DNA of 64,000 nucleotides from Paraconexibacter algicola (lineage in GTDB: Bacteria > Actinomycetota > Thermoleophilia > Solirubrobacterales > Solirubrobacteraceae). A model generated the notes under the pieces. It was given only the letters and a program-made list of their open reading frames with translations. It did no database searches and was not told the origin of the DNA. The stretch spans positions 2,438,978-2,502,977 of the forward strand of contig NZ_PYYB01000001.1 of the NCBI RefSeq assembly GCF_003044185.1, read 5' to 3'. Shown piece by piece: positions 23,428 through 51,611 of the stretch. The translations under genes were made by a program, and so were the position numbers. Position 1 is the first letter of the stretch; every line of letters starts with the position of its first letter.

Positions 23428-23501
<74 letters not shown>

Positions 23502-23504
23502 CTA

Positions 23505-23526
23505 GGGATGTTCTTCGGAACATCCC
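23505..23526 (+). terminator. UUCG-tetraloop hairpin directly after the tRNA
   Basis: GGGATGTTC and GAACATCCC form a perfect 9-bp stem closed by a TTCG loop, 3 bases after the tRNA discriminator base. It may be a 3' processing or termination signal, or part of an attachment site for the element. Confidence 0.5.
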
Positions 23527-23533
23527 CGACCGG

Positions 23534-23557
23534 AAGCCTCCTCTCGCCGGGAGGCTT
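23534..23557 (+). terminator. Second hairpin after the tRNA
   Basis: AAGCCTCC and GGAGGCTT (8 bp) around an 8-base loop, followed by a T-containing stretch (TCGTGTTT). It is a plausible intrinsic terminator for the tRNA. Confidence 0.55.
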
Positions 23558-23714
23558 TCGTGTTTCCGAGGCAAGCCGGGCACCGGCTGGGTCTCAATTT
23601 GGTCACATCTGTCCTCGGAAACGGTATCGGCACTCGCGGTTGGAGTCGGAGTCCGGCGTACGGGCACCCCACGAAGCGTGGGGCGTTGTCCGAGCGCGCG
23701 GACATGATGGATTC

Positions 23715-26700
23715 GTGAATGCTCCGCGCCCCGAGAGTCATTCGGCGCGGCTTTCTGAAGCGGAACTGGTCGACCGATCGCTCCGGCCTCCGCATCTCGT
23801 AGTCCCGGTCGTCGGGGCCGGCGTCAGCGCAGGAGCGCAGTTGCCGGACGCCGGCGCCCTTGCGCAAGCACTCCTGTCACGGGGCGTCTTTGTCGACGGG
23901 GATCCACCGGCTGCCGAGGTCCTCTTCGACGTGGTCGATGCTCTAGACCCCGGCTGGCGAGAGGACAATCTTGCTCGGGTCGTGGACGAGGTCCTCGGCG
24001 CCGAGCCGCTGCCCACCGACGACCCAATGGCGCGCGCGCTCGTGCAGGTTCCGTCGCGGTTCATCGTAACCCTGAACTACGACCTGCTGCTTGAGGCCAC
24101 AGCTGACGCGCTCGGCATCAGGCACCGCGTCCTGTCGAACACGAAGAGCGAGCTGAAAGAAGCGCACCGGCTCCTTGCTCGCGAGGCATGGCCTCTCGGG
24201 GAGCTCACGATTCTTCACCTGCACGGCATGGTGGGCCGTCCGGAAACGCTCGTCCTCGACGCTGACTCGTACTCGGACCTCATGTCGATGGCCGGGCAGA
24301 AGGAGGTGCTGCGGGAACTCTTGGTTCATCGCCGGATGGCGTTTTACGGCACGACGCTGAACGAGACCTACTTTCTCGAGGCCTGCCAGCGCCAGTTGAA
24401 TTCTGCGGACCACGTTCTCGTCTGTGCTGACCATGAGGTCGAGACCGTTAAGGGCGGCCGCCTCTCGATCTCGTATCCGCGCCATCACATCCGCATCAAG
24501 ACCGTCAGGTCGCACTCTGAGCTGCCAGATGATGTCGCACTGCTCACGACGCGAGCCGAGCCGCAGATCGGCCGTCGAGCGGTTACCGGAGCTCTCGAGC
24601 GGAGTGGCCTGCATCGATACATCCCCAACGAGTTTGCGGATCTGCGCAACCCGATTACCGAGGACCAGCGCGTCAAGGCCTGGGTCGAGGACGAGATCGA
24701 CGCCTTTGACGAGCCGAACGAGGACGACATCTTGGTCGGCCATCGGACACTGGTCGTCGGAGACGTGGGCGTCGGCAAATCAGAGCTGATCGAGGAACTG
24801 ACGGCGAATCCGCGTGCCAACCGCCCGACCGTCCTTGTCCGGCTCGGAAATCTTCGCTTTGCCGGGGGTCAGCTTTCGCGTGTGCTGCAGACCTGGGCAC
24901 AGTCTGCTGTGTCCGCCCACGGCGGCGTCGACGTCTCGCTAGACGCGGTCGAGGCAGGCGGTCTGCATTTTCTCCTCGACGGGCTTGATGAGGTCCCGGC
25001 CTCTGAGCAGGCTACTGCTGGGCGATTGATTCGCCAGGTGGCTGCTGGCCACCCGCAGCACGCGTTCACAGTCACCTCGCGGCCGTCGGCTGCGTCGGCT
25101 GAGTTCCAGACTTCGGGCGATGAGTGGGCGGTCTTGCAGCTCGCGCCATCGAGGATCTGGCAGGAGCGGTTTCTACACGCCCAGCAGGTCGACCTCGCCA
25201 CGCTCCGCGGAGAGATGGACGAGCTTGACGACCTCGACGAGCTCCTGACCACGCCGTTCTTTCTCGCGCGTATCGTCGAACTCCACCGAGCCAACCGGCT
25301 CGCCGGGCTGAGTGACCTAGGGACCCTGCTTGAGGAGATGATCTCGTGGCAGCTCGACCGCGAGGACGACCTCTTGGATGTCGATCTCACTGACGTCCGC
25401 CGCTGGCTCCAAGAGGTCGCCCTCTTCGGGCTGATCTTCAGCAAACGAGGCTTCACGTCAGGCGAGTTGCGCTGCTTCACCCTTCCGCCTGGAACCTACG
25501 GCGGACTCGACGGTCTCACCGAGGCCCTCGTGCACCGTCTCCTCTTGTCTGAGGCCGAGGACGGATACCGGTTCCCGCAGCGAATACTGGGCGAGCAACT
25601 GGCAGCCGAGCGCCTCGTCGGTCTGGAACCCGGCGAGGCGCTACTTGGCGCATTGGTGCCGCGTGCAGCAGCGGATGTTGGCGCCGTACGCGAGGACGCG
25701 CTGCTGTCCGTAACGCTCGCCTGCCGGCGGTCGAAGGTGTGGCGAAAGGCAGTTGCGGACCGGGACCCCATGGCGGCAGCCGTCGCGACGCCTCGCGGCG
25801 CGAGTGAAGGTGAACGGGACACGGCTGCCCTGAGCATCTGGCGTACGTACTCCGAGTGGCGCATTTGGATGTGGAGCCGCGGGCGGTCTTCGGTGCTTGA
25901 CCATGCGGCGAGTCTGGGGCGCCTTGTCGCAGGCAGGTCGCGATGTGCGCCGGCGAGGCTGCTCCAGGGAGCAATGCGAGGCGGGGGACGAGAGGAACAA
26001 GGGAACGCGATCAGAGCACTTGCGATCTCGCCGCCGCCCAACTTCATCTCCGAACTGCGGGCGGTCCTCGAGGACCCAACGCGTGATGGTGTTGTCCTTC
26101 GGCAAGCGGCGATTGCGGCGGAGGACCTCGGCTACGTCGACCTGCTCGATGCGCTTCTAGTGCTGGTCGAGACAGCGCTCGACGACACTGTCAAGCAGAC
26201 AGCCGGAGCGTCCGTCATTCAGCTCACACCCGAAGAACGTCTCGTAGAGGTTGGCCGTCGGCTGGCACGGACCACCGAGGCAGACCTCAGTCTCATCCGT
26301 CTTGCCGACCGACTCAGTTCCAGCGGGCTTGTGCTGGTGGCAGGGTCCACAGTTGCCAACGATGAGCCTCGCTTGCCGGACAGGGTGAGGCGACGGATTG
26401 CCGAAGCCGTCACAGACGTCGGGCCGGATCCCGGGGCGGAAGTCGCGGAGGCATCGGCGTACGCAATCGTTGTGCACCGGCTCGATGCCGCCATCGCGGA
26501 GGCGATCGCTGAGAGACAGCCGGAAGCGATGATGCGGGGCGTAAGCCGTGCGGTCGCAGATGGCGTGGATGACTGGGAGGCGATCCAACTTGGTTCGTAC
26601 CTCCCTCGCGAGACTCTCGAGCGGGCGGGGTTCGATCCCCGACTCGTGGAGTACGCCCAGCGCGCGCGAGAGGCCCGCGCCAGCCCACCGCCAGGCAGCC

Positions 26701-27788
26701 GGGTCCAACAGGTGCCCGCCGAGCCGGCTGCTTCCGAGGAGGTTTCCCTTGCCGGCCTTCTGGCGAACGACAGTGCTGCTGGCTCCGACCTGTTGCTCCG
26801 CGAGTACCGCCGGCTGGCGCCCCAAGTCGCTCAGCTGAGCGACCCGCTCAGAGAACAACTGGCGCACGTCGTCGAGCGGTGGCGGCCAGAGATCCCGTAC
26901 CGCGAAACGATCACTTTCATTCAGCGGAGGCACTGGAACCAGTGGGTCTCTGCGGCAGCGTGGGCCGCGTACTCGGCGCGCCTTCGCGCCGACATCGACC
27001 CATCGACATGGGCACAGATCGCGACCTGCGGCGTCGTCTTCGGGCCCGAACACGAATGGCTGCGGGCCACCGCGACCGATGACGGCCAAGTAGAAGCCGC
27101 GTGTCTGCTCGAGGGCGAGACGGACCCGGAGTTCTGGCTCGACATCTTCCAGAGTTGCGAGCCGCCCTACGCGCCGCGGTTGCTCCGAAGTGCGTGCGCA
27201 AATCTGGAGGGTGGTCGCGCCGACGACGTGCCGGAGAACGAAGACAGGATTGCCTGCCGGCGGCTCGTAGAAATCTTCGTTGACGCGCAGGAGCATGCGC
27301 TGGCCGCGCGGCTCGCGCAACGCCGACCGGCCCTGCAGGGAGACCTCGACGCGCTCTTCGCCCGGGGCGGCGACCTTCCGGCCCAGCTCCGGCTACTCCC
27401 TGATCTAGTGGCGCGAGCGGAGCGCGGCGAGCGTCTCTCCGACGAGGACGTGCAATGGATGTCCGGCGTCACACACGCCGATGCCCTCCCGCCCCTCTTT
27501 CGGGTCCTGGCCGCCGTATGGGTAACCCAGTCGGGACCGGTCCCTAGGTTCAGCAGCGGCAGCAGCCCTCGCGACCTAACGTCGCCCGTCATCGAGGCGA
27601 TCGCTCGGATCGGTGGCATTGCAGCGGTTCGGGGCTACGACGAACTTCTCGAGAGAGGAGACGATCTCCGCTGGCTGCGTAGTCCGCGCGACCAAGTTCT
27701 CGCGCGACTTCTGGCAACCATTGCTGAGCCCCTCGCAGCAGCAGCGGCTTCGGCGGCGGGCCTTCCAGAATTGTCCGCGGAGGACTAA
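23715..27788 (+). CDS. SIR2-STAND NTPase protein, Avs5-like predicted anti-phage effector
   Basis: 1357 residues from a GTG at 23715. Residues 25-300 are a SIR2-like NADase domain: VVPVVGAGVSAG (34-40), FIVTLNYDLLLE with T119/N121/D123, and HLHGMVG (168-174). A STAND/NACHT NTPase follows, with Walker A GDVGVGKS (349-356) and the NACHT-type Walker B FLLDGLDE (D422). The rest is a long helical-repeat region, the usual target sensor. SIR2-STAND proteins (Avs5 type) bind a phage protein, oligomerise and destroy NAD+ to stop infection; assignment to that role is by domain order. It is the first gene after the tRNA and is visibly richer in A/T than the genes to its left, as expected for transferred DNA. 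Earlier in-frame starts would run through the tRNA terminators. Confidence 0.85.
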   Translation: MNAPRPESHSARLSEAELVDRSLRPPHLVVPVVGAGVSAGAQLPDAGALAQALLSRGVFVDGDPPAAEVLFDVVDALDPGWREDNLARVVDEVLGAEPLPTDDPMARALVQVPSRFIVTLNYDLLLEATADALGIRHRVLSNTKSELKEAHRLLAREAWPLGELTILHLHGMVGRPETLVLDADSYSDLMSMAGQKEVLRELLVHRRMAFYGTTLNETYFLEACQRQLNSADHVLVCADHEVETVKGGRLSISYPRHHIRIKTVRSHSELPDDVALLTTRAEPQIGRRAVTGALERSGLHRYIPNEFADLRNPITEDQRVKAWVEDEIDAFDEPNEDDILVGHRTLVVGDVGVGKSELIEELTANPRANRPTVLVRLGNLRFAGGQLSRVLQTWAQSAVSAHGGVDVSLDAVEAGGLHFLLDGLDEVPASEQATAGRLIRQVAAGHPQHAFTVTSRPSAASAEFQTSGDEWAVLQLAPSRIWQERFLHAQQVDLATLRGEMDELDDLDELLTTPFFLARIVELHRANRLAGLSDLGTLLEEMISWQLDREDDLLDVDLTDVRRWLQEVALFGLIFSKRGFTSGELRCFTLPPGTYGGLDGLTEALVHRLLLSEAEDGYRFPQRILGEQLAAERLVGLEPGEALLGALVPRAAADVGAVREDALLSVTLACRRSKVWRKAVADRDPMAAAVATPRGASEGERDTAALSIWRTYSEWRIWMWSRGRSSVLDHAASLGRLVAGRSRCAPARLLQGAMRGGGREEQGNAIRALAISPPPNFISELRAVLEDPTRDGVVLRQAAIAAEDLGYVDLLDALLVLVETALDDTVKQTAGASVIQLTPEERLVEVGRRLARTTEADLSLIRLADRLSSSGLVLVAGSTVANDEPRLPDRVRRRIAEAVTDVGPDPGAEVAEASAYAIVVHRLDAAIAEAIAERQPEAMMRGVSRAVADGVDDWEAIQLGSYLPRETLERAGFDPRLVEYAQRAREARASPPPGSRVQQVPAEPAASEEVSLAGLLANDSAAGSDLLLREYRRLAPQVAQLSDPLREQLAHVVERWRPEIPYRETITFIQRRHWNQWVSAAAWAAYSARLRADIDPSTWAQIATCGVVFGPEHEWLRATATDDGQVEAACLLEGETDPEFWLDIFQSCEPPYAPRLLRSACANLEGGRADDVPENEDRIACRRLVEIFVDAQEHALAARLAQRRPALQGDLDALFARGGDLPAQLRLLPDLVARAERGERLSDEDVQWMSGVTHADALPPLFRVLAAVWVTQSGPVPRFSSGSSPRDLTSPVIEAIARIGGIAAVRGYDELLERGDDLRWLRSPRDQVLARLLATIAEPLAAAAASAAGLPELSAED

Positions 27789-28753: not shown

Positions 28754-28757
28754 AACT

Positions 28758-28796
28758 CAGGGGGGAGTAGTTCGGCTCTCACGCGACTAAGAAGGT
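28758..28796 (+). promoter_or_regulatory. Element promoter, copy 1 (fused sigma-factor operon)
   Basis: CAGGGGGGAGTAG (from 28758; core GGGGGGAGT 28760-28768), 15 bases, then CGCGACTAAG with CGACTAAG at 28784-28791, 5 bases, then ATG at 28797. Copies 2 (37073) and 3 (51599, reverse strand) have the same boxes, the same 15-base spacer and the same 5-base distance to the start codon. This spacing fits an ECF promoter whose transcript begins at or next to the start codon (leaderless). Confidence 0.8.
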
Positions 28797-28970
28797 ATGG
28801 CCAGTCTTCTCTCCTCGGCACAGCACACCTCAGGCGGCCGACCCCCCGATCGTCGCAATGTCCTACCGCGCGGCGATTCGCAAAGTGCGCGAACGGGTAC
28901 GGCGCCCCGCGAGCAAGGGAGCGGCACGGTGTCGGACGCGTTCACCCGGAAGGCCCGACGGTGGCACTAG
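28797..28970 (+). CDS. 57-residue leaderless reading frame ahead of the sigma gene
   Basis: An ATG sits exactly 5 bases after the promoter box, as in the two other promoter copies. It opens a 57-codon frame (MASLLSSAQHTSGGRPPDRR..., basic, no motif) whose TAG overlaps the GTG start of the sigma gene by 10 bases. It may be a small protein or a leader whose translation delivers ribosomes to the sigma gene. The start position is supported by the three-way promoter comparison; no homologue is recognised. Confidence 0.5.
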   Translation: MASLLSSAQHTSGGRPPDRRNVLPRGDSQSARTGTAPREQGSGTVSDAFTRKARRWH

Positions 28971-30223
28971 CGCCACAGGCCGACGAGCGCGCGGAGCTCG
29001 ACCGAGCTTTCGAGGAGCATCGCGCCGCGATCATGACGATGCTGCGCCTCGAGTTCGCAGGCGTGGACGACCACGAGGACCTCTATCAGGAGGCCTGGGT
29101 CGAGGCGCTGGAGAAGATCAAGCAAGGGACTGAGGTCAGGAATCTCCGTGCGTTCCTTCGGTTGATCGCTTGGCGTCGCGCGAGGGACAAGCTCCGCAAC
29201 GTCGCGGCGACGCCCGAGGATCCCGAGGGCTACCTCCTTCGTGATCAGCTGGATAGCGGCCCGCTCCCTGACGAGATTGCCCAGGTCCACATCGACGCGA
29301 AGGCCGTCAGAAACGTCATCGACGAGCTCGACGAGCGGCGGGCCGCCGCTGTGAAGATGCGCTTCGACCTCGGCATGAGCTCGACCGAGATCGAGCGTGC
29401 GCTCGGGATCAGCCGCAAACGGCTCGACAAGCTACTCGGGAGCGCGTACCGACTGATCGAGGAACAGCTGGTCGCCGATGAGACCGGCGAGGCGCCGTGG
29501 ACCCGGAGACAGCGAAGCCTCCTCTTCACGTGTTTGTCGGGTATGGCGAGCGAAGGGCAGCGCGCGCGGGCTCAGCGGTTGGTCGACACCGATCCGGCCT
29601 GCAGGGCGATGCTCGCGCAGATGCGCGCGTCGCTCGACAAGGTCGCGGCGGCGCTGCCTGTGCCCGTCGTGCTCGAAGGTGAGACGGAACGCTCGTTGCC
29701 CTTCTTCGACCAGCTTCAGAACGCCGTCACGAGCGTCCGCGAGACGGTGGCGTCCCTGCTTGGACGCTCTGGAGGCCAGGCGTCGACGTTCGAGCCGGTG
29801 GCCGGTGGCCTCGCCGGGGTCAGCGCCGCGGGCGCCGCCAAGGTCGTCGTCGTCTGCATAAGCCTCGGGGCAGGGGCGGCGACGTGCGTCGAGTTCGGCG
29901 TGGTTGGCGGAGACCCGAAACCGGAGAACGCCCAGGCCAAGGAGTACGAGAAGCGGCCGGCCGCGAAGGAGGAGCAGGTGGCGGCTGTCGCACCAAGGCC
30001 GACGCCGACTCCACGGCCCGTAGTACGGAAACGATCGAAGCCGAAGGCCGCGACTCCGGCGGCGACACCGTCCGCTCCGGTCCCCAAGACCAACGGGCCG
30101 GCGGCAGCATCGCCGGCGCCCGCCGGAAGCGTCGAGTTCGGGCCCGGCTCAGTCGGGTCAGTCCCGGCATCGCGGCAGCCGGCAGCGGCGCCCGTCGACG
30201 GCGGAGGCGAGTTCACACCATGA
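28961..30223 (+). CDS. ECF sigma factor fused to an anti-sigma-like, membrane-spanning tail
   Basis: 420 residues from a GTG with GGAAGG 7 bases upstream. Residues 14-80 are sigma region 2 (DDHEDLYQEAWVEALEKIK) and 105-165 region 4 (STEIERALGISRKRLDKLL). Residues 185-232 resemble a zinc-finger anti-sigma helix bundle without its Cys/His ligands. A transmembrane segment lies at about 284-309 (VSAAGAAKVVVVCISLGAG), and the remaining 110 residues are Pro/Ala/Lys-rich and would face outside. So the sigma factor may be held at the membrane until released. It probably reads the three element promoters, including its own. The stop overlaps the region before the next ATG by 4 bases (ATGA at 30220). 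Confidence 0.75.
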   Translation: MALAPQADERAELDRAFEEHRAAIMTMLRLEFAGVDDHEDLYQEAWVEALEKIKQGTEVRNLRAFLRLIAWRRARDKLRNVAATPEDPEGYLLRDQLDSGPLPDEIAQVHIDAKAVRNVIDELDERRAAAVKMRFDLGMSSTEIERALGISRKRLDKLLGSAYRLIEEQLVADETGEAPWTRRQRSLLFTCLSGMASEGQRARAQRLVDTDPACRAMLAQMRASLDKVAAALPVPVVLEGETERSLPFFDQLQNAVTSVRETVASLLGRSGGQASTFEPVAGGLAGVSAAGAAKVVVVCISLGAGAATCVEFGVVGGDPKPENAQAKEYEKRPAAKEEQVAAVAPRPTPTPRPVVRKRSKPKAATPAATPSAPVPKTNGPAAASPAPAGSVEFGPGSVGSVPASRQPAAAPVDGGGEFTP

Positions 30224-30240
30224 TCGAGGAGCGGAGCAAG

Positions 30241-32397
30241 ATGAGGATCCGGCTTGTCAACCTGCTGGTGGTCGTGGGCTTGGCCATGGTCCTCGCCCCG
30301 TCCGTGGCGCAAGCAGGGACCTATGACGTCCACGCTTGCAACCCAGCCGTCGCCGGCGGTGCCAACAACGCGTTCTTCCCGCTGAACAACGGCGGTCTGA
30401 CCGCGTTCGCCGAATGCCCTGCGGGTCAGGGGATCACGGTGCGCAACGGCTGGGACAACGGTCAGAGTTCCTTCCTCGAAGGTGCGTACATGGTCTTCGA
30501 CGCCCCGAGCGGGAACCTCGTGGAGAGCGTGCAGTTCCAGGCGGGCTTCGAGCGACACGACTGCTCTTGGGGCACCGGTGTCATCGCGAGCGGCTACGAC
30601 CTTGGCGGCACCCGCGTCTGGGGCTTCGCCCCCGGCGCCGATTGCGGCTCGGGCCAGACACCCGGGCCGACGAGCTTCTTCCCGAGCCGATTGGACTTCC
30701 CGATCAACCAGCCGCGCGTGCGCTTCGAGACTCGCTGCGGGGCGGGCTCCTGCCCGCGAACCGGCATTGCCGCGTTCCGAGTTCGCGACGTGCTCGTCCG
30801 GGTGCGCGACGACGCGGGACCAACGCTTGCCGGCGGTCGCGGAGCGTTGTGGACCAGCGACGGCTGGTTGGCCGGAAGCCACACGGCAGGCTTCGACGCG
30901 AGCGATCCGTCAGGCATCCGCGAGATCGGAATCTCGGTCGACGGCAAGCGAGTCGGCACGAGCTCCCCGCCGTGCGACTTCACCCGCCCGACACCCTGCC
31001 CGCCGGCGTCCATCGAGGAGCCGCAGAACACATCCGGATGGGGTGGCGACGGTGAGCACACGGTGACGCTCACCGCTGTGGATGCCGCTGGAAACGCGTC
31101 GACCTCGAGCCGTACCGTGAAGGTGGACAACACCGCACCTGATGCGCCGACCGATGTCATCGTCGAAGGCGGCTCGGGCTGGCGCCCGAGCAACGGCTTC
31201 AACGTCCGATGGACGAACCCGGAGCAGACGGCCTCGCCCATCGCCGGCGTGAACTGGGAGCTCTGCACGCCAGGCGGCAAGGAGTGCAAGCGCGGCAGCG
31301 AGGAGCGGGCTGACATCAATGTTCTCGACAAGCTCGAGCTGCCGGCGCCGGGCGAGTACGTCCTGAAGCTCTGGCTCCGAGACGCGGCAGGCAATCAAGA
31401 GGAGCGCCTCGCGTCGGCTCCGATGACGCTCCGCTACGACGACGCCAGCCCGGAGGTGGAGTTGGAGCCGCTCACCGCTGAGGATCCGACTCGCGTCACC
31501 GCGAGGGTTTCTGACCGGGGCTCGGGCGTCGTGTCCGGTGCGATCGAACTACGGCGAGTCGGAGCAACAGAATGGACCGCACTCGAGACGACAGTCGACG
31601 CCGGGCATCTGATCGCACGCATCAACGACGAGGGGCTCGGTGACGGGCTGTTCGAGCTGCGAGCTCGCGCCGCGGACCATGCTGGCAACGAACGGTCGAC
31701 GACGACGATGAAGGACGGTCGGACCGCGCAGATCACGCTTCCGCTTCGGCTGAAGACGAAACTCGCCGTCGGCGTCGTCAAGCGGAGCCGTCGCGGCGAG
31801 AAGCTCGTGTCCGCGGCCCGCGTCAGCTACGGACAGCTCGTTCGCGTGCGGGGTCGGATGACGTCACCAGAGGGCAACCCGCTGCAGGATCTCGAGGTCC
31901 AGGCCATTTCGCAGGTCCTCGACGGCGTGACGCCGCCACGCGTCATCGCGACCGTCAAGACCTCGCGCACGGGCAGGTTCTCCTTCCTCGTGCGCAAGGG
32001 GCCGAGCCGCAGCATCACGGTCCGCTACGCCGGCGCGCCTCAGGTGCGCTCGGTCACCCGAGACCTCAAGCTGAACGTCCGCTCGCGTACGACGCTCCGG
32101 CCGAACCGCCGCTCCTTCGTGAACGGCGACACGGTGCGCTTCCGCGGTGCGGTGACGACAGGGAGAATCCCAGGGGCCGGCAAGCTGATCGAGGTCCAGG
32201 TGCTGTCCCGCGGGAAGTGGCGAACCTTTGCAACGACGCGCACGGGGAAGAAGGGCACGTGGCGTCACGACTATCGCTTCGACGGAACGAACGGCCGCGT
32301 CACGTACCGATTCCGCGCGCGCGTTCCGCGGGAGAGTGGCTACCCGTTCGTCACGGGCGGCTCGCGCAGCATCCGCGTTCGAGTTCGCGGGTTGTAG
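30241..32397 (+). CDS. Large secreted surface protein with Ig-like repeats
   Basis: 718 residues from ATG 30241 (GAGGAG 9 bases upstream; ATG 30220 is an alternative). Signal peptide MRIRLVNLLVVVGLAMVLAP...AQA, then AGTYDVHACNPAVAGG, a beginning I associate with Thermoleophilia exported proteins. A lectin/jelly-roll-like N-terminal domain is followed by Ig/fibronectin-like units (DAAGNASTSSRTVKVDNTAP; RDAAGNQEERLASAP; RAADHAGNERSTT) and Ig-like beta-domains at the end. There is no sortase motif. Likely a cell-surface adhesion or cell-contact protein. It stands in the same transcription unit as the fused sigma factor, so it may be made when the element is active. Confidence 0.7.
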   Translation: MRIRLVNLLVVVGLAMVLAPSVAQAGTYDVHACNPAVAGGANNAFFPLNNGGLTAFAECPAGQGITVRNGWDNGQSSFLEGAYMVFDAPSGNLVESVQFQAGFERHDCSWGTGVIASGYDLGGTRVWGFAPGADCGSGQTPGPTSFFPSRLDFPINQPRVRFETRCGAGSCPRTGIAAFRVRDVLVRVRDDAGPTLAGGRGALWTSDGWLAGSHTAGFDASDPSGIREIGISVDGKRVGTSSPPCDFTRPTPCPPASIEEPQNTSGWGGDGEHTVTLTAVDAAGNASTSSRTVKVDNTAPDAPTDVIVEGGSGWRPSNGFNVRWTNPEQTASPIAGVNWELCTPGGKECKRGSEERADINVLDKLELPAPGEYVLKLWLRDAAGNQEERLASAPMTLRYDDASPEVELEPLTAEDPTRVTARVSDRGSGVVSGAIELRRVGATEWTALETTVDAGHLIARINDEGLGDGLFELRARAADHAGNERSTTTMKDGRTAQITLPLRLKTKLAVGVVKRSRRGEKLVSAARVSYGQLVRVRGRMTSPEGNPLQDLEVQAISQVLDGVTPPRVIATVKTSRTGRFSFLVRKGPSRSITVRYAGAPQVRSVTRDLKLNVRSRTTLRPNRRSFVNGDTVRFRGAVTTGRIPGAGKLIEVQVLSRGKWRTFATTRTGKKGTWRHDYRFDGTNGRVTYRFRARVPRESGYPFVTGGSRSIRVRVRGL

Positions 32398-32465: not shown

Positions 32466-33016
32466 TCGATCGATGCAAGGCCAACCTGAGCTACGCGAAC
32501 GTCATGGCGACGTTCGCAGTCTTCGTCGCCCTCGGCGGGAGCTCCTACGCGGCGATCACGCTGCCGCGGAACAGCGTGGGGGACAAGCAGATCCGGACCG
32601 CAGCGGTCCGATCGAGCGAGGTCCGCGACCGTTCGCTCGGCGTCCGCGACCTAAGCCTCGACGCTCGCAAGTCGCTTCGCGGTGTGGCTGGCCCTGCAGG
32701 TCCCGCAGGCACGCAAGGTCCAGCGGGGCAGAGCGCGACAGCGTTCTTCGCCGTCGTCGCCCCGAGCGGCTCCTTCGTTCGAGGGAACGCGTCGAGCGGA
32801 GGGAAAGCGGGTGGGTTCGGTTCATACAACGTCGTCTTTCCTACTCCGGTGAGCGGGTGCGGCTTCGCGGCGACGCTCGCTTCAACAGACGGCAGTCCCA
32901 CGCAGGGCGGTCGAGTCACCGTCGCGGATTCTGGCTCGGGCGGTGTCGCAGTCCAGACGTTCGACGCGGCGGGGACGGCGGCCGATCTGGGATTCCATCT
33001 GCTGGTTGCGTGTTGA
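32462..33016 (+). CDS. Secreted collagen-like protein typical of Thermoleophilia
   Basis: 184 residues from a GTG with GGAGG 6 bases upstream. The N-terminus NVMATFAVFVALGGSSYAAI is a signal/anchor, followed by LPRNSVGDKQIRTAAVRSSE, a conserved beginning in many Solirubrobacterales exported proteins. A short collagen-like GPAGPAGTQGPAG stretch (about residues 79-91) leads to a C-terminal beta domain. Exported or surface-bound; function unknown. It lies 64 bases after the larger surface gene and shares its transcription direction. Confidence 0.7.
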   Translation: MIDRCKANLSYANVMATFAVFVALGGSSYAAITLPRNSVGDKQIRTAAVRSSEVRDRSLGVRDLSLDARKSLRGVAGPAGPAGTQGPAGQSATAFFAVVAPSGSFVRGNASSGGKAGGFGSYNVVFPTPVSGCGFAATLASTDGSPTQGGRVTVADSGSGGVAVQTFDAAGTAADLGFHLLVAC

Positions 33017-33020
33017 CCGG

Positions 33021-36000
33021 TCACCCGACCTGGGGTTTCCAGCCGGGAGCTAGCGGGTCGTCGCCGACGAGCCGCAATTGCTCCGAAATCGGGAGTCGGC
33101 TGAAGGCATGCCACACTGGCAGTGGACCGCTGGATGTCGCGCGCGCCCGCTGCGTTACCTCCGCCATTGCCAGGTCGATTGGATCCGGGCCGGATCCGGT
33201 GTGCCGCCTCAGACTGCGGAACAGACTCGTCAGGTAGCCGGCGGCCAAAGGGGCCGGCGACGCGAGCGTCGCGAGAACGAGCAGCGTCGCGCAACTGCTC
33301 AGATCGGTGCCACGACCAACTGCGCTCGCTCGCAGAACGGAGTGAACCAAGTCGTCCAGGGTGTCGGGGCGTTCGACGTAGCTAGCCGCGAGCGCGGCGT
33401 GCCATGCAGCAAGCAGTACGGCTGGCTCGACCGCCCATCCTTCGGGCGCGAGGACCGTGGTTGCGGTGGCGCGCGTCAACTCGAAACCGTCAGCTCTTAC
33501 CCGAGCGGTCAGGTCGTTGGCGGATACCGACAGGTATCGACCCCCGCCGGACCGAAGATCCCACAGCGCAGCGTCAAGTTGGGCCTGCGAAATAGCTCCT
33601 CTGGCCTCAAGCGCTGCGAGGAGCCCCACGGTGCCAAAGGTGGGCACCCCGAGCTGACGAGCAAACCGCCTCAGATACCGGTCGTCGCTGAAGAAGGGAA
33701 GGTTGGCCTGTTGCGCGACCGCGATTGCACCTAGCCACGTCGACGCCGAGGGGTCGAGGTCAGTGTCGCGCAGAGCTCGCTCGAGATCCTGCTCTCCGCT
33801 GGCGTCAGGGTCTCTCACAACTAGACGTGCAAGGCTGCTTTCCGCGCTGTCCAGACGGTCGCGCATGCCGTTCAGGACATCGAGGTTGTTCTCGACGATC
33901 TGAAGCGACTGTCCGTCGCTGTCGAAGGTGAATGACCCGGGGGACCGGTCCGGGTCGAGCGAGGCCAGCCCGTGACGTGCGCGCGGGAAGTCGGCGGCGG
34001 CGGCGCGGGCGATCGTCGACCCGGGTAGCGAACTCGCCATAAGCTCTCGTAGGTCCGCGCCCAGCAGGGTGTGGACGGCCAACGTTGAGAGGTCCCAAGA
34101 TGCGGCGCCGGCAATTGCTGCATCGGCTGCCTTCCGTTCGTCGCGGTTCTCGGCGTCCACCGGATACGTCAGCGGGAGGACGTTCGAAAACAGCCAGACC
34201 TCGAGCGGAGTCCTCCCTAGGAGACAAAGCAGCGAAAGAGACGCCTGCCCACGCCAGATCTGCTCCTGAATTCTGCGCGCGAAAAGGTGTCGGTGTTTCG
34301 CCTGCGCCTCCAACCGGCGGATCCAGTCCGACCCATCATCGATGGGTTCGGCTTGGATGATTTCGGACTCAGGGAAGCGTTCGGAGAAATCAGTGAACGT
34401 CAGTCTCACTCGCGCTTCGAGTTCCGGCGGGAGGTCGTCCTTCGCTTCGCCGGCGGAGACCGTGATCAGCATCGCCTCGAGCCGCTCATCGCGACGGTCG
34501 ATCTCGTCGGAGAGGTCGGCTATCCGTTGGAGTGCTTCGGGTAGCGAAAGGCTCTGGGATGCCAGCTGCGCGACCAGAAGACGTTCGTTGTCCGAACCGG
34601 GTTCGAGAGAAGCGGCGTCGAGGATCGAGAGCGCGGCCACGGGATCTCCGACACGAGCGAGCGCGTCTGCGGCCGCCCACGGTGCTTTCGGGCTTGCAGG
34701 AAGTACGGCGTGCCAGCGTGTAGCGAACTCAGCCAGCGCACCCCATTGCTGGCGCTCGGCGAGGGAGCTCGCCGCGCGGAAGGCGGCCTGCTCGCGCCGG
34801 AAGTACGACAGCTTTTCGTCGTTTAGCAGCTCCGTCCACAGCTCCTCGGCCTCCGTAATCCGTCCGATCTCGTGCAGCGCCACGGCCTTGCGGAAAAGCT
34901 CGACCTTCGGAGGATCGGTTCCCAGGGACTCAACGAGACTCAGCACCTTTTCCCACTGTTGCTGCTCGGCCAGAAGGTCGATCAGCGCGCGTTTGCCGTT
35001 AACCGTGTCGCTGTATGGCAGAAGCACCATCTCTGCATCGCCGATGCGATCGCGACGGGAAAGGTGGGCGGCATGCAGAGCGGCGGCGTACAGTTTGCGA
35101 TCGTCGAGCAGCTCTGCCGCGGATTCGTTCCATTCGGCGTCGAAGTCAGACGATGCGATCAGACGAGCATGGGCCACCTCGCTGCGCAGCCTCGCTTCGA
35201 GCGACTCGTCGGCCAGAAGCGCATCCAGCGTTTCGACAGCGGCTTCGATCCGTCCTTCGGCGAGCGCGACGCGTGCCATAAGCAACCGACTGGCGGGCGA
35301 AGCCGGCGCACGGGCGGGCGCGAACCTCCGCGCAAGCGCGAGCTCATCGCAGTCCAGCAAAGCCAGCGCCATCGTCGTTCGAGCATCCGTTGGCAGCGTG
35401 TCGATCCCGCTCACAAGCCACCACTCGGCGAGCTCAGGCACGAGTTCCGGGCGCCCCAGTCTTTGCAGAACACCGAGGAGCCGCGAATCAATCTGAAGAG
35501 CCATTCCTGGCTGTTCAGTCGCGAGCGATTCGACGGCAACCTGTGAGAGCAAATCGGCTGCCTCCACGTACGCCGCCGCGTCGGGCGATGCCGCGCTCTC
35601 CTCGCGGCGGAGCAGCATGATGGCAAGGCGTTCAGCCAGCAAAGGACTCCAGCGCAGAGCCAACGCCGCCCGGACATCGGCGATGCCGTCAGCGTCGCGC
35701 CCGAGCGCCGAGAGCGCAGAAGCCATTCCGGCTACCAGGAGCGCTCGTTGGCGGTCGCTAGATGCGGTGATACAGCGGAGTGCTTCAAGCTGGCTGTCGG
35801 GTGCTTCAAGACGCAGCGCCTCCCGAATGGCATACCCCGAGTTGGTGGGCTGGGCCCGTGCCGCTGCGTGCAACCTCTCCTCCGCCTCGTCGCTCGGATC
35901 GTGATCGGCGATAAGGCCGAGGAGCTCTACGCGCGGAGCATCGGGTTCGTCTATCCGTCGGTTCAGCGCCTGCACCGCGGGTGAAACACGTTCGAGAACG

Positions 36001-36992
36001 AGCAACATGCGGGCCGCGGCCTCAAGGCGAAGTCCGACGGCTTGTTCCGCAATCGCCTCAAGTGACCTCGCGTCGTCGGCAATTGCTCTTGAGAGGGTGG
36101 TTGCACCCTCGGGATCGTCAGTCGACAGTTCGTCAACGATGCGACGGAGCTGAAGCGACGTTGACAGAGACGCGCTCGCGCGTTCGTCGATCCGTAGCAG
36201 GTCGGAGGCGATATCAAGGACAGGTCCATCTGGCTCAACGGCTCCGTCTGGGTCGTCGTTCCCGGCGAAGCTCTTGGCGGTTGTTCGGGGTTCTTCGGCT
36301 TGGCCGGTCGCGTAGAAATAGCTCGAAAGCCTCACCGGCGACCGGGGGGCAACTTGGAGCGTGTCCTGGACGGTTGCCAGCCACCGAGCCCAAGCGTCTT
36401 GACCCTCGTCATGGCACTCCACTGGCCCGAGTGCGGTCACACAGGCCGACCCGAGCACGAGCAAACCGTTGATTGCTCCCGGCGGACCGTGCACGGCGCA
36501 CGCGTCTTCGGCGGCCTTTGACAAGTTCGCGGCAGTCAGGCCCTTAAAGCCAAAAGCGAAGACGGCAGGAATGGGACGCTCGCCAGCCTGTCCGACGTGC
36601 ATCGCTCGAAGCTCTGCGGCGGCCTCGGCGCACTCCTCAATTGCGGCCGTGTTTAGGTTGGATTTCACGGAGACGACGGCGAGGACAGCTTCGATCCCGA
36701 CGATGCCGGGCTGCGAGTCGCCGGTCAGGTTCAGCCCTACCGTGCTGTCGTAAACGATCACGTCCCATTCGCGGCTGGGGCCGAGATCAGGAGCGGTAAT
36801 TTCCCCGCGGACGTAGCCGTACGCTGGCATGTACTGCATGAGGCGGCCGCGGACGAGCTCCTCGCGGGCCGAGCCGATGGACGGCCCGTGCTCTGACGAG
36901 GATGCATGGATTTCAGCTTGTGCGGCGAGCGCTCGCTGATCGGCTCGGAAGCTCTCGAGGATGCGTTCGCGTGATGCCACCTCGCCCAGCAT
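33021..36992 (-). CDS. Giant nuclease-like / helical-repeat / PIN-like protein, possible new defence protein
   Basis: 1323 residues from ATG 36992 (a GTG near 37034 is also possible). Residues 15-180 resemble the DUF6602-type PD-(D/E)xK-like domain: SAREELVRGRLMQYMP, EWDVIVYD (D77, D82), GIEAVLAVVSVKSNL. The usual Glu before x-K is Ser (S108-V-K110), so the nuclease may be inactive or use E101. Residues 200-1000 are repeated helix pairs of TPR type (e.g. LALAEGRIEAAVETLDALLA). Residues 1075-1150 read like the second half of a PIN ribonuclease (FFSDDRYLRRFARQLGVPTF, D1103/D1104, then GTVGLLAALEARG). The sensor-plus-two-effectors layout fits a defence protein, but no described system is recognised. 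It is transcribed away from the secretion operon, and its 5' region abuts promoter copy 2. Confidence 0.65.
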   Translation of the reverse strand: MLGEVASRERILESFRADQRALAAQAEIHASSSEHGPSIGSAREELVRGRLMQYMPAYGYVRGEITAPDLGPSREWDVIVYDSTVGLNLTGDSQPGIVGIEAVLAVVSVKSNLNTAAIEECAEAAAELRAMHVGQAGERPIPAVFAFGFKGLTAANLSKAAEDACAVHGPPGAINGLLVLGSACVTALGPVECHDEGQDAWARWLATVQDTLQVAPRSPVRLSSYFYATGQAEEPRTTAKSFAGNDDPDGAVEPDGPVLDIASDLLRIDERASASLSTSLQLRRIVDELSTDDPEGATTLSRAIADDARSLEAIAEQAVGLRLEAAARMLLVLERVSPAVQALNRRIDEPDAPRVELLGLIADHDPSDEAEERLHAAARAQPTNSGYAIREALRLEAPDSQLEALRCITASSDRQRALLVAGMASALSALGRDADGIADVRAALALRWSPLLAERLAIMLLRREESAASPDAAAYVEAADLLSQVAVESLATEQPGMALQIDSRLLGVLQRLGRPELVPELAEWWLVSGIDTLPTDARTTMALALLDCDELALARRFAPARAPASPASRLLMARVALAEGRIEAAVETLDALLADESLEARLRSEVAHARLIASSDFDAEWNESAAELLDDRKLYAAALHAAHLSRRDRIGDAEMVLLPYSDTVNGKRALIDLLAEQQQWEKVLSLVESLGTDPPKVELFRKAVALHEIGRITEAEELWTELLNDEKLSYFRREQAAFRAASSLAERQQWGALAEFATRWHAVLPASPKAPWAAADALARVGDPVAALSILDAASLEPGSDNERLLVAQLASQSLSLPEALQRIADLSDEIDRRDERLEAMLITVSAGEAKDDLPPELEARVRLTFTDFSERFPESEIIQAEPIDDGSDWIRRLEAQAKHRHLFARRIQEQIWRGQASLSLLCLLGRTPLEVWLFSNVLPLTYPVDAENRDERKAADAAIAGAASWDLSTLAVHTLLGADLRELMASSLPGSTIARAAAADFPRARHGLASLDPDRSPGSFTFDSDGQSLQIVENNLDVLNGMRDRLDSAESSLARLVVRDPDASGEQDLERALRDTDLDPSASTWLGAIAVAQQANLPFFSDDRYLRRFARQLGVPTFGTVGLLAALEARGAISQAQLDAALWDLRSGGGRYLSVSANDLTARVRADGFELTRATATTVLAPEGWAVEPAVLLAAWHAALAASYVERPDTLDDLVHSVLRASAVGRGTDLSSCATLLVLATLASPAPLAAGYLTSLFRSLRRHTGSGPDPIDLAMAEVTQRARATSSGPLPVWHAFSRLPISEQLRLVGDDPLAPGWKPQVG

Positions 36993-37070
36993 CTCACCGA
37001 GCGCGGGTGGAACCCGCTCCGGTGCGCGGACCACCGCGCCCCCGGAGCCGCCGGACTGCGCGGCAGAACT

Positions 37071-37109
37071 CAGGGGGGAGTAGTTCCCGACTCGCGCGAC
37101 TAAGTAGGT
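37071..37109 (+). promoter_or_regulatory. Element promoter, copy 2 (secretion operon)
   Basis: CAGGGGGGAGTAG (GGGGGGAGT 37073-37081), 15 bases, CGACTAAG 37097-37104, 5 bases, GTG at 37110. Boxes and both distances are identical to copies 1 and 3. It drives the type IV secretion operon and overlaps the upstream region of the divergent giant gene. Confidence 0.8.
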
Positions 37110-37400
37110 GTGACCCCTCCGACCGTAGCGACCGAGAAGCGCGGCTTTCGCATCTCTGGTGACGGCGTCCTCCCCGTCCAGCCAGCGCGACGCCCCGTAC
37201 CTGCAGCCTCCCGCCGCGGGCTCGCGACGATTCTGGCCATCGGCGCGAGCCTCGTTGCTGCAGGGCTTGTCGCTACGGGGAGGGGGGATCACAACCCGCA
37301 GGTTCCGTTCTCGATCGCGGCTCCCCGCGGCGAAGTGCGTATCGAAGAAGGGCCTGCACCCACTGACCACGCTCAGCCACGTCTCGTAAAGGCGCGCTGA
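37110..37400 (+). CDS. Small single-pass membrane protein opening the secretion operon
   Basis: 96 residues from a GTG placed 5 bases after the promoter box, the same distance as at the other two promoters. A basic N-terminus (residues 1-35) is followed by one membrane segment (GLATILAIGASLVAAGLVAT, about 37-56) and a short outer tail. No family recognised. Its TGA overlaps the ATG of the TcpC-like gene by one base. It is probably a minor component or regulator of the conjugation machine. Confidence 0.6.
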   Translation: MTPPTVATEKRGFRISGDGVLPVQPARRPVPAASRRGLATILAIGASLVAAGLVATGRGDHNPQVPFSIAAPRGEVRIEEGPAPTDHAQPRLVKAR

Positions 37401-38221
37401 TGCTCGAGGTGGCGACGCAGCGCCTTCATACGACGCGGTGGCTCGCGCGTGCACCGCGCGCCGGGCTTCTCGCTACGTGCGCCGTCCTGAGTGCCGTCGG
37501 GCTTCGAGATCTGTTCGTGACGCCGGCAGCGCCTGCGCCGCGACAGTCAGCGCCAGCGCAAGCCGATCCGGGGTCGCAGGCCTTCGCCGAAGCGTTCGCG
37601 CGCGACTACCTGACGTGGGACCGCGACGGCTCGGAGTCCTCGACGACCCTGGCTGCGTACGGCGTCGACCTGATCCCGCCGCGGCCGCCCGGTGGACTCG
37701 ATCAACGAGTCCGGTGGACCTCCGTCGCGGGTGCTCGGCGCGCGACCGGTGGCACCGAGGTTGTCACGGTCATGGCGCAGACGACGCGCGGGCGCGTCGC
37801 ACTCTCCGTGACCGTTCGGCGAGATGTGGCGGGCGCACGCCAGGTGGTTGGTCAGCCGGCGGTGGTCGGCGCTCTTCCCCGTGCCGAGAACCCGGCGAGA
37901 CCAGGAGCCGGCCGCGAGGTCACCGAACCGCAGCTCGTTGCAGCTGTGGAACGGGCACTGCGGAACTACCTCGCGCGCGATGGCTCGGATCTTCGCGCCG
38001 ACCTCTCGAGCGACGCGAAGCTCGTGCTCCCCGACCGTGCCCAACGTGTCCTCTCGGCGGACCCGGTGATCTGGGTGCGTCTCGGGTCGCGGGTCGCGAC
38101 GACCGTTCGCACGGCAGACCGAGATGGCGTCCAGATGACCCTGCGGTACGAGCTGGCGGTCACAAGGCAGGCGGGGCGATGGCTCGTACGCGCGATCCAC
38201 ACCAACCCGGAGGTGCAGTGA
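37400..38221 (+). CDS. TcpC-like (VirB8-type) conjugation protein
   Basis: 273 residues: membrane segment at about 20-37 (AGLLATCAVLSAVGLRDLF), then two NTF2/VirB8-like halves. FARDYLTWDRDGSESSTTLAAYG near residue 70 is the typical TcpC beginning (FA..YLtW...R...L..y), and VERALRNYLARDGSDLRADL starts the second half. TcpC-type proteins form the VirB8-like ring on the outer membrane face in Gram-positive conjugation systems. One base overlaps the start of the next gene. Confidence 0.8.
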   Translation: MLEVATQRLHTTRWLARAPRAGLLATCAVLSAVGLRDLFVTPAAPAPRQSAPAQADPGSQAFAEAFARDYLTWDRDGSESSTTLAAYGVDLIPPRPPGGLDQRVRWTSVAGARRATGGTEVVTVMAQTTRGRVALSVTVRRDVAGARQVVGQPAVVGALPRAENPARPGAGREVTEPQLVAAVERALRNYLARDGSDLRADLSSDAKLVLPDRAQRVLSADPVIWVRLGSRVATTVRTADRDGVQMTLRYELAVTRQAGRWLVRAIHTNPEVQ

Positions 38222-38514
38222 TGAGGCTTGTCCTGATGACAGCGGCGGCGCTCGCCGTCTACGCGGCGGTGCCGGCGCTGGCGCTCGCCGAGACCAGTGA
38301 CGTCGGGCAGAACCTGGGCGAGGAGATCAAGACCTGGGCCACGACGCTCCTGCTGGGTGTTGCGGCGCTGGTGTCGATCCCGGTTCTCGCCAAGCGCGAC
38401 ATCAACGGCGGGCTCGTGCTCGCCCTGCTCGTGATGATCGTCGGAGGGTTCGCGTTCGCCCCCGACCAGGTGAAGGGCGTGATCGTTTCGCTCTGGGGCT
38501 CGGTCGCGGACTGA
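38221..38514 (+). CDS. Small hydrophobic conjugation protein, VirB2/TrbC-like
   Basis: 97 residues with a signal-like N-terminus (MRLVLMTAAALAVYAAVPAL, then ALA) and two further membrane segments (TTLLLGVAALVSIPVLA; LVLALLVMIVGGFAF). Size and topology match pilin-like VirB2/TrbC proteins, which lie between VirB8-like and VirB3/TcpE genes. The similarity is structural rather than by motif. Overlaps both neighbours by one base. Confidence 0.6.
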   Translation: MRLVLMTAAALAVYAAVPALALAETSDVGQNLGEEIKTWATTLLLGVAALVSIPVLAKRDINGGLVLALLVMIVGGFAFAPDQVKGVIVSLWGSVAD

Positions 38515-39095
38515 TGCGCGAGCGCGACGAGATCGTGATCCGCTCGTTCCGCGTCGTGTTTCAGCTCGACCGACGGCTCCACCGGATCGATCGCTGGCGT
38601 CTACCCCTGCCGTACGGGCTGCCGCTCCGCAGCCTGGGGTACGCCGCCGGGGCGCTGCTGCTCGTCCTTGTAGTCGGGCAGCTCCCCGTCCTGGGCACGG
38701 TTGTCGGAGCGCTGCCTGCACCAGTGCGACTGGCCTTGATCCCGGGCGCAGCCGCGTACGCGCTGACGTCGATCCAAGTCGATGGCCGGCCGGCGCACGA
38801 GGCGTTCATCGCTCTCGTCGTCTGGAGGATCCGGCCGCGGGTCGTAACGGCGTGGAAGCGAGGAACGAGGCCTGGACAGCAGGCGCGGCTCCTCGACGTC
38901 CGGGTGGCACCGGACGCGAGCGGTCCCAGGCTCCGGCGAGGCCGTGTTCGTGGGCCGGCAACCGCCGTCGTGCGCGTCGCCGCCACAGCGGACGAGCGCG
39001 GTCGCCGACTGACCTTGCGAGGCGAGGAAGGCGCAGCGCTCGAGGAGGGCTTCGAGATCATCTTTGATCAGTCACGCCGGCTGGTGATCCGGTGA
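38514..39095 (+). CDS. TcpE/VirB3-like conjugation membrane protein
   Basis: 193 residues starting MRERDEIVIRSFRVVFQLDR. Two adjacent membrane segments (about 43-60 and 66-85) follow the amphipathic N-terminus, as in TcpE. The C-terminal half is soluble and basic. Its place directly ahead of the VirB4 gene and the 4-base overlap (GTGA) support a VirB3/TcpE role, docking the ATPase to the membrane. Confidence 0.7.
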   Translation: MRERDEIVIRSFRVVFQLDRRLHRIDRWRLPLPYGLPLRSLGYAAGALLLVLVVGQLPVLGTVVGALPAPVRLALIPGAAAYALTSIQVDGRPAHEAFIALVVWRIRPRVVTAWKRGTRPGQQARLLDVRVAPDASGPRLRRGRVRGPATAVVRVAATADERGRRLTLRGEEGAALEEGFEIIFDQSRRLVIR

Positions 39096-41485
39096 GACAG
39101 CCGATCACCTTCGTTCACGGCAACCTCGTCTTCGGTGCCGGAGGCGCGGACGACGCGTGGGCGCTCTACCGGCTCACCACCCGGTCGTACGCAGGGCTGA
39201 CGTCCGCGCGCAAGCGAGAGCTGCTCGGCGAGATCGCTGGGTTCGCTTACACGATCGCCGCGGACTTCCAGATTCTCCGCGTCAGCAGATCCACTTCGGT
39301 GGAGGACTACGCCGACATGGCCTACGGACTCGCCGACGCCCCTGAGCCGGAGTCCGCGCTCCTCGATCGCATGGTGTCTGCGCAGCGGGCACGGGTCTCG
39401 CTCCTTGCGTCAGTCACCCCAGAGGTCTTCCTCGCAGTCGCGCTGCGAGCAGAGCCCGCGCGCGATCTTCGCGCGAGCGTTTCGCGTGCCCTCGGCCTCC
39501 GGGACCCACGCGCTCTCACGGCGCGCGCCATGGCGAAGCTGATCCAGGAGGAGAGCAAGGTCCATGCGCGCGTTGCCGACTTCCTGGACTGTGAGCGAGC
39601 CACGACCGGGGATCTCCAGTGGCTCGTCCGGCGGGCCTTCTGCCGAGGTCTCGGCGAACCGGAGAGCGATCCCCGGTGGCTGCCGCAAGCTCTCGTCCTG
39701 GACAGCGACGACGAGGACGGCGGGTGGCGGTTCGAGCCGCTCGAGTCGGACATCCTGCGGCTGTTCGACGCGCCGATCGAGGTCGGGGCTCGGGCGCTCG
39801 TGACGCACTCCGAGCTGGGAGAGACGCACCAGGCTTTCCTGGCCATTGGCGCACTGCCCGAGACCGTGGCCTTCCCCGGCAGCCAGGCCGAGCTTCTCTT
39901 CGCGCCGCTCGAGGCGCTGCCGTTCCCGGTCGATGCGGTCTTCACGGCCCAGTGGCTCGCAAACGACCGCGCGGTCGCGCTGACCCGACGCCGACTGGTC
40001 GACGCCGACAACGTCTTCGCTGAGGAGCAGGACGGGCACCACGGCGCGACCGCCTTGACTGCCGCCCGCCCGGCCGTCGCGCGCGAGCTCGAGGAGTACC
40101 TGACGTCTTCCGAGCGGCCGCCGCTGCTGCGGTCGACGATCTCGCTCGCGGTCAGCGCATCGACCAGCGACGAGCTCGAGCATGCGGTGGAGCGCGTCCG
40201 CGCGCAGTACGCACCAATCACGCTGCATCGTCCTGCGGGATCGCAGCTCGAGCTGTTCACGACGCACCTCCCCGGCCAGCGCGCGGGCACGCGCGCGTAC
40301 GAGGACGTCCTCCTGTGCGAGCAACTCGGCGCGATGGTCCCGACCGCGACGCACCAGGTGGGCTCGGACTGCGGCTTCTACATCGGCGCAACGCTGACGG
40401 GCGCACCGCATCCGGTGCTTATGGACCTGACGGAGGCACCGCGGACATCCAGGCCGCCGGCGATGCTGTGCTCCGGGACGCTCGGCTCCGGGAAGACCCT
40501 GGCGGCCGAGCTGCTCGCGCTTCAGGCGTTCGCCGCCGGCTCCCGCGTGGTTAGCGTCGACCCGAAGGGGGACCACCGGCTCGATGCCGTCGTCGACCCG
40601 GAGGACGTCGAGCACATCTCGCTCTCGCCGGACCCCGAGTTCCGCGGCCTCCTGGATCCGCTGCGGATCGGACCGCAGGACACCCGCACCGATCTCGCCT
40701 ACGGCTTCCTGATCGACATCCTGCCGTCTCCCGTTCCGGCGTCATGGCAGACCGAGATCCGGCGGGCAGTCGACGTGGTGGGGGAGAGTCTTCTGGCGTC
40801 GTGCGCGGAGGTCGTGGACCGGCTGATCAACGGCCGTGACGACGCGACCGAGGCCGGCCGTGCGCTGGAGACCTACGCGCAAGGCGGGCTGCTTCGACTC
40901 GCGTTCGCCGAGGCGGACAGCCCCACACGGCCGGCGCTCGCAAAGCGGCTGACGGTGCTGCGGATCGCCAATCTGGTTCTCCCGCTGCCAGGCACGCCTC
41001 GCGCGGAGATAAGTTCAGACGAGCGCACGGGCCAGGCGCTTCTGCGCCTGCTCGCCACGTATGCGACGCACCTCATGGCGAGCGACACGAGCCGCCACAA
41101 GGTCCTGCTCTTCGACGAGGCTTGGATGCTGCTCGGCGATGCAGCCGGACGCGCCCTCGTCCAGCGAATCAACCGACTTTGCCGAAGCCAGAACGCAACG
41201 CCGATCCTGGCCACCCAGGCCCTCGCCGACGTGGGGGACCTCGACAACCTCCTCGGCGCCCTGTTCTGCTTCGGGGTGGAGACCGACCACGAAGCGCGTC
41301 AGGTCCTGGACCTGCTCGGCCTCGACCCTGAGGACGCTCCGCTTCGCTCACGCCTGCAGAGCTTCCGGCGCGGGCGCTGCCTCATGCGCGACTACGAGGG
41401 CCGCGTCGGAGCTGTCCAAATCGATCTCGCCGACCAGGACCTTCTCGACGTCCTCGACACCTCCCCGGCCCACGCTCGAGGATGA
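39092..41485 (+). CDS. VirB4-family conjugation ATPase
   Basis: 797 residues from a GTG. Walker A GTLGSGKT at 462-469 and Walker B KVLLFDEAW at 670-678 (D675/E676); VDPKGDHRLDAVVDPED and TPILATQALADV are also typical of the VirB4/TraE AAA+ domain. The N-terminal 400 residues are the membrane-contact domain. It energises assembly of the secretion channel. Overlaps the preceding and following genes by 4 bases each. Confidence 0.9.
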   Translation: MRQPITFVHGNLVFGAGGADDAWALYRLTTRSYAGLTSARKRELLGEIAGFAYTIAADFQILRVSRSTSVEDYADMAYGLADAPEPESALLDRMVSAQRARVSLLASVTPEVFLAVALRAEPARDLRASVSRALGLRDPRALTARAMAKLIQEESKVHARVADFLDCERATTGDLQWLVRRAFCRGLGEPESDPRWLPQALVLDSDDEDGGWRFEPLESDILRLFDAPIEVGARALVTHSELGETHQAFLAIGALPETVAFPGSQAELLFAPLEALPFPVDAVFTAQWLANDRAVALTRRRLVDADNVFAEEQDGHHGATALTAARPAVARELEEYLTSSERPPLLRSTISLAVSASTSDELEHAVERVRAQYAPITLHRPAGSQLELFTTHLPGQRAGTRAYEDVLLCEQLGAMVPTATHQVGSDCGFYIGATLTGAPHPVLMDLTEAPRTSRPPAMLCSGTLGSGKTLAAELLALQAFAAGSRVVSVDPKGDHRLDAVVDPEDVEHISLSPDPEFRGLLDPLRIGPQDTRTDLAYGFLIDILPSPVPASWQTEIRRAVDVVGESLLASCAEVVDRLINGRDDATEAGRALETYAQGGLLRLAFAEADSPTRPALAKRLTVLRIANLVLPLPGTPRAEISSDERTGQALLRLLATYATHLMASDTSRHKVLLFDEAWMLLGDAAGRALVQRINRLCRSQNATPILATQALADVGDLDNLLGALFCFGVETDHEARQVLDLLGLDPEDAPLRSRLQSFRRGRCLMRDYEGRVGAVQIDLADQDLLDVLDTSPAHARG

Positions 41486-51601: not shown

Positions 51602-51611
51602 GATCGAGCTC

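Follow-up and report, generated by a model that had tools for sequence, protein, structure and literature searches.

SCO4117 of Streptomyces coelicolor (ECF52) is an autoregulated extracytoplasmic function (ECF) sigma factor that controls development and is suspected to be released by proteolysis (PMC5826349). IutY of Pseudomonas putida (ECF243), which acts in iron-siderophore cell-surface signaling, is cut by Prc and RseP (PMC8999054). We analyzed a 64,000-nt stretch of the Paraconexibacter algicola genome (NZ_PYYB01000001.1, positions 2,438,978 to 2,502,977; hereafter the window) that encodes a sigma factor of similar build within a 98.5-kb integrative conjugative element (ICE). We consider it probable that this tethered sigma factor is the self-amplifying master switch of the ICE and is released proteolytically after an outside cue. 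The parts of the protein and its partner gene are as follows (window positions, strand, feature, basis):

28961-30223, +, gene for the tethered ECF sigma factor, 420 aa, GTG start at 28961 and TGA stop at 30223 (open reading frame, domain matches, homologues)
29015-29200, +, sigma region 2, residues 19-80 (Pfam PF04542)
29303-29434, +, sigma region 4, residues 115-158 (Pfam PF08281)
29495-29653, +, anti-sigma-type three-helix domain, residues 179-231, with W, L and D in place of the C, H and C ligands (AlphaFold2, alignment, zf-HC2 in relatives)
29798-29878, +, single hydrophobic (predicted membrane) segment, about residues 280-306, including Cys 299, with Cys 309 just beyond (hydropathy)
29879-30220, +, predicted outer Pro/Lys-rich tail, with EFGP at 30134-30145 and terminal EFTP at 30209-30220 (alignment, composition)
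30220-32397, +, secreted immunoglobulin (Ig)-like partner, 725 aa, its start overlapping the sigma stop by 4 nt (ATGA) (Pfam Big_13; present 3' of the sigma gene in 21 of 24 family loci)

The window sigma factor resembles SCO4117 in joining an ECF sigma factor to an anti-sigma domain of the zinc-finger type, a membrane segment and a Pro-rich outer region (PMC5826349), the last two being predicted here from hydropathy and composition. SCO4117 has an intact zinc finger, whereas the window protein does not, though other members of its family keep zf-HC2, and SCO4117 bears on the same chain a carbohydrate-binding domain for which the window protein has no Pfam match; because both features fail, we do not file it in ECF52. 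Further differences are its short EF-ended tail, its separate secreted partner and its likely regulon, the conjugative element. IutY likewise has its sigma part fused to a membrane-bound anti-sigma part, and its released sigma part is active (PMC8999054); cleavage of IutY is known, whereas release of the window protein is proposed. More broadly, the fused anti-sigma-type domain and membrane segment of the window protein are those of the proteolysis-activated ECF kind (ECF48, ECF52, ECF53 and ECF243). The sigmaE-RseA-RseB system with DegS and RseP is similar in arrangement, comprising a sigma factor, a membrane anti-sigma factor and an exported partner, with exported C-terminal ends as signals, and RseA is a separate protein, whereas the window domain is fused to its sigma factor (PMC10202637). 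By analogy, the window protein would work like SCO4117 and IutY; what would be new is its link with conjugation, its separate secreted partner and an EF tail common to a type IV secretion system (T4SS) protein.

The sigma part is well defined. Sigma70_r2 (E 2e-7) and Sigma70_r4_2 (E 6e-6) both score above their curated cut-offs, as does the NCBIfam sigma70-ECF model (E 6e-15), and the presence of regions 2 and 4 only places the protein among the ECF (sigma-70 group 4) factors. A PDB sequence search gave no match, and the top structural matches of an AlphaFold2 model built from a five-sequence alignment are ECF sigma factors. Three homologues of equal length align with the protein end to end at 39-43% identity, which argues that the architecture is beyond chance. 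Scanning the genome contigs with the single protein returned nothing and an alignment-based scan returned five loci; relatives were found in neither viral contigs nor plasmids. Alignment, tail and partner counts given below refer to a family set of 24 members.

In the AlphaFold2 model the sigma helices are followed by helices at residues 179-192, 198-210 and 212-231, a block of moderate confidence (predicted local distance difference test, pLDDT, about 73-87). Most of the 24 relatives carry a zf-HC2-type pattern, C..HxxxCxxC, at this three-helix position, and zf-HC2 is above cut-off in three of the eight relatives scanned, while the window protein has no Pfam match to it. Three of its four zinc ligands are lost and the final Cys alone is retained; at the four ligand positions it and the three members nearest to it have, in order, W/Y, a hydrophobic residue, D and C. 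We therefore conclude that the zinc site has been lost and the helices kept. The first-pass annotation, which had read the chain as sigma regions 2 and 4, an anti-sigma-like helical bundle devoid of zinc ligands, one membrane segment and an outer Pro/Lys-rich tail, was thus accurate apart from the remaining Cys, with topology standing as a prediction.

Only one segment of the protein, at about residues 280-306, exceeds a Kyte-Doolittle hydropathy of 1.6 (peak 2.0). Since AlphaFold2 left the chain from residue 239 on effectively unmodeled (pLDDT <50), the membrane helix is proposed from hydropathy and from its conserved place in relatives. The tail beyond it, about 110 residues of low complexity, is 59% Pro/Ala/Ser/Thr/Gly with several Lys and is predicted to lie outside. 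Cys 299 and Cys 309 (29855-29887) are invariant in the alignment with the three equal-length homologues, and a Cys pair about 7-11 residues apart is kept at the membrane segment in 18 of the 24 family members. This pair could sense redox or metal, which would suit a sigma factor that regulates the ICE without proteolysis, either because a signal reshapes the fused domain and the sigma factor acts from the membrane or because the tether merely tunes its level. The fused domains of ECF41 and ECF238 do work through conformational change (PMC8999054). We nevertheless regard such a mechanism as rather unlikely, as an anti-sigma-type domain followed by a single membrane segment and an outer tail fits the group with known or proposed proteolytic release (IutY, ECF52; PMC8999054).

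An Ig-like partner gene lies 3' of the sigma gene in 21 of the 24 tethered members, including loci on distant sigma branches; none follows the sigma gene at the four T4SS loci where that factor is untethered. The AlphaFold model of the partner is poor (mean pLDDT 48). A transposase-like gene is inserted between the sigma gene and the partner in genome G007, and such a gene separates the two at the Paraconexibacter antarcticus locus L113 (NZ_CP098502.1, 11230-14850), where the partner frame is broken near residue 160. The listed open reading frame at 32473-33237 of the window showed no sign of being a real gene and was rejected.

The tethered sigma factor is tied to transfer functions by a promoter-like motif of the form AACTCAGGGGGGAGTAGTTC-N8-CGCGACTAAG, spanning 44 nt up to the start codon. 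The copies and relevant genes in the window are:

28754-28797, +, ECF-type promoter-like motif of the sigma gene, reaching the ATG at 28797 that opens a 57-codon leader frame
37067-37110, +, promoter-like motif of the T4SS operon, reaching a GTG at 37110
51562-51605, -, diverged promoter-like motif of the relaxase gene, ending at the GTG at 51562 (score 33.1)
48680-51562, -, TrwC (MobF) relaxase (Pfam 1e-82)
51681-52169, -, second, soluble ECF-like sigma factor, 162 aa, upstream of the relaxase, with no promoter motif before its gene

AACTCAGGGGGGAGTAGTTC occurs at both 28754 and 37067, with none expected in shuffles, and the relaxase copy was scored with a matrix built without that site, against a shuffle maximum of 12.6. 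A further copy precedes the xis-int genes at C1:2560829 (-); scanning the ICE beyond the window gave no other, so that, with the three listed above, the element holds exactly four. In every copy a start codon (ATG or GTG) closes the motif 43-44 nt after its first base, which suggests leaderless messages. The leader frame (28797-28970, +) runs from the promoter ATG and overlaps the sigma start codon, perhaps allowing translational coupling. Elsewhere in the genome, with up to three mismatches allowed, the motif recurs only once, ahead of a second TrwC relaxase close to an end of contig C6 (G000 C6:1326-2236, L058), so the same sigma factor may also act on another element or a detached fragment. 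The shared promoter postulated in the first-pass annotation is thus borne out and extends to the relaxase and xis-int, and self-amplification is likely, since the motif stands before the sigma factor's own gene and other motifs follow the same logic in three other lineages.

The motif might instead be read by the second soluble sigma factor, which would then activate the ICE, leaving the tethered sigma factor as a target that reports surface state for other genes. This is the strongest rival reader; its gene adjoins the relaxase, and similar sigma genes are placed 3' of the T4SS in the elements of genomes G035, G065 and G074. We judge it unlikely, because the second sigma gene itself has no motif in the window, whereas the tethered sigma gene has one upstream of it in four lineages, as is usual for autoregulated ECF factors, and because in G020, G040 and G054 a sigma factor of the other kind itself heads the T4SS operon.

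The element is an ICE by its integrase, its direct repeats at a tRNA gene, its relaxase, T4SS and coupling protein; excision and transfer are predicted from these genes. It extends beyond the window in a host genome of 4.7 Mb, with the sigma gene 5.5 kb inward from its border and an Xis-like helix-turn-helix gene and a tyrosine integrase immediately inside the attR copy. Its left border and T4SS genes are:

23459-23503, no strand, attL, the 45-bp 3' part of tRNA-Met (23428-23502), an exact repeat of attR at G000:C1:2560944-2560988
37110-37400, +, first gene of the T4SS operon, encoding 96 aa with a single hydrophobic segment; in other lineages its counterparts end EFF/EFGP/EFGFE
37400-38221, +, TcpC/VirB8-like T4SS protein (Pfam TpcC E 0.0019, under the curated cut-off; P. 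antarcticus homologue)
38514-39095, +, TcpE-like T4SS protein (Pfam 5e-6, slightly under the curated cut-off)
39092-41485, +, VirB4-type ATPase (Pfam AAA_10; homologues)
41482-43827, +, VirB6/TrbL-like protein (Pfam E 3e-4, under the curated cut-off; homologues)
43824-44807, +, transglycosylase (SLT; Pfam)
44602-46464, +, coupling protein VirD4/TraG, start codon provisional (Pfam)

The T4SS set, relaxase, tyrosine integrase and Xis-like protein are those of TcpC/TcpE/VirB4-type Gram-positive conjugative elements (Tn916/pCW3-like), whose known regulation, to our knowledge, uses no membrane-tethered ECF sigma factor with a secreted partner. As far as we know, ICE switches described to date are mostly repressors, phage-like regulators or peptide sensors, and the literature searched contained no description of an ICE switch made of a tethered ECF sigma factor, an exported tail and a secreted partner.

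A search of 101 related genomes gave VirB4 relatives in 18, and 17 VirB4 loci had enough flanking sequence for comparison. A tethered sigma factor lies within about 10 kb of VirB4 at nine of the 17, drawn from several sigma branches, and four more have an untethered sigma factor beside the T4SS. In a sigma tree with weak deep forks, the T4SS-linked members are spread over several separate branches, which makes it unlikely that the link is one accident of descent. In each of G035, G074 and G065, one motif is common to the sigma gene and the first gene of the T4SS operon. These motifs differ from that of the window and from one another, although their -10 parts have a CGAC core in common; random pairs equaled the shared motif in 1, 0 and 0 of 400 trials, respectively. 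A third copy in G074 and G065 precedes related genes of the mobilization region that weakly resemble MobC replication-relaxation proteins, and three sigma copies in the Conexibacter metagenome-assembled genome RYN_248 retain a G035-type motif. These linkages support the connection to mating suggested in the first-pass annotation. Many family members occur in genomes lacking a related VirB4 (G063, G071, G072, G087, G089 and others), as would be expected of a general envelope-stress sigma factor carried by the ICE as chance cargo with no transfer role. This explanation is very improbable given the motif at all four transfer modules, the equivalent motifs in other lineages and the recurrence of T4SS linkage from several sigma branches.

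A second link to the T4SS is the end of the tail. Most of the 24 family members end in E-F-x-P and usually have another EF motif 28-70 residues upstream of the end. At nine T4SS loci, a gene about 1.7-2.1 kb 5' of VirB4 encodes a protein that has one strongly hydrophobic segment and ends EFF, EFGP or EFGFE, and at three untethered-sigma loci an EF-ended single-segment protein is encoded directly 3' of the sigma gene; the window copy of the first T4SS-operon protein has no terminal EF motif. At loci L095 (G040), L098 (G020) and L100 (G054) an unfused sigma gene heads the T4SS operon and is followed by a bitopic EFGFE-ended protein. Because first T4SS-gene proteins carry the same EF end and at three loci adjoin the sigma gene, we consider that tail-end motif, sigma factor and T4SS belong together. 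DNA for EFGP plus a stop codon, sought in ten genomes, gave 16 matches, four with TGG instead of the stop; 11 of the 12 true sites terminate a tethered sigma factor or a first T4SS-operon gene and the twelfth is unassigned, and the motif is therefore close to specific for this system. A match in G099 (C72:11010) sits in no convincing reading frame and was rejected. We tentatively speculate that a wide range of ICEs in Thermoleophilia use surface sensing to gate conjugation. In this scheme the tethered sigma factor and the bitopic T4SS protein would expose the same C-terminal EF motif, and the secreted Ig-like protein or a protease reading that motif would couple mating-pore state or partner contact to sigma release and transfer-gene transcription.

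In the mechanism that we favor, the sigma domain would be held at rest on the inner membrane face by its own C-terminal, zinc-independent anti-sigma-type domain, with the tail outside and probably touching the co-encoded Ig-like protein. When an outside cue acts on the tail and its partner, the outer part would be cleaved first and a cut within the membrane would follow, after which the freed sigma domain would guide RNA polymerase to the ECF-type motif. The sigma and partner genes would thereby be switched on together with those for the T4SS and the relaxase and with xis-int, so that excision, DNA processing and pore building would begin simultaneously. If this is correct, a sigma factor whose tail is exported and whose partner is secreted makes transfer answer to the cell surface; the promoter signature delimits a transfer regulon that can be tested in bacteria for which hardly any genetics exists, and the EF-ended tail common to a T4SS protein gives a concrete handle on what is sensed.

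Several observations weigh against this mechanism. The AlphaFold2 model showed neither a membrane helix nor reliable packing of the fused domain onto the sigma domains. The soluble sigma factor beside the relaxase is a possible reader of the motif, four of the 17 T4SS loci have no such sigma factor in reach, and a motif shared by sigma and T4SS genes was sought in G007 and G045 and found in neither. Candidate release proteases, M50 site-2 and S41 tail-specific, are encoded in the host genome but are both so common that their presence says little. The earlier reading of a sigma factor fused to its tether and inhibitor is accordingly upheld in part, for its architecture, shared promoter, likely self-amplification and mating link; the partner, the EF motif and the ICE borders are additions to it.

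The ICE also carries other genes. The first gene inside attL (23508-27788, +) encodes a SIR2-like and NACHT/HEAT protein and is likely a defense gene. Between the sigma-partner pair and the T4SS operon lies a gene for a DUF6602 and PIN-TPR-GreABC protein (33021-37454, -), probably cargo, whose start is likely further in, as the longest open reading frame runs over the T4SS promoter. An AbiEi/AbiEii-type toxin-antitoxin pair and an ArdC-like anti-restriction protein are encoded at 46553-48231 (+) and 53542-54618 (-).
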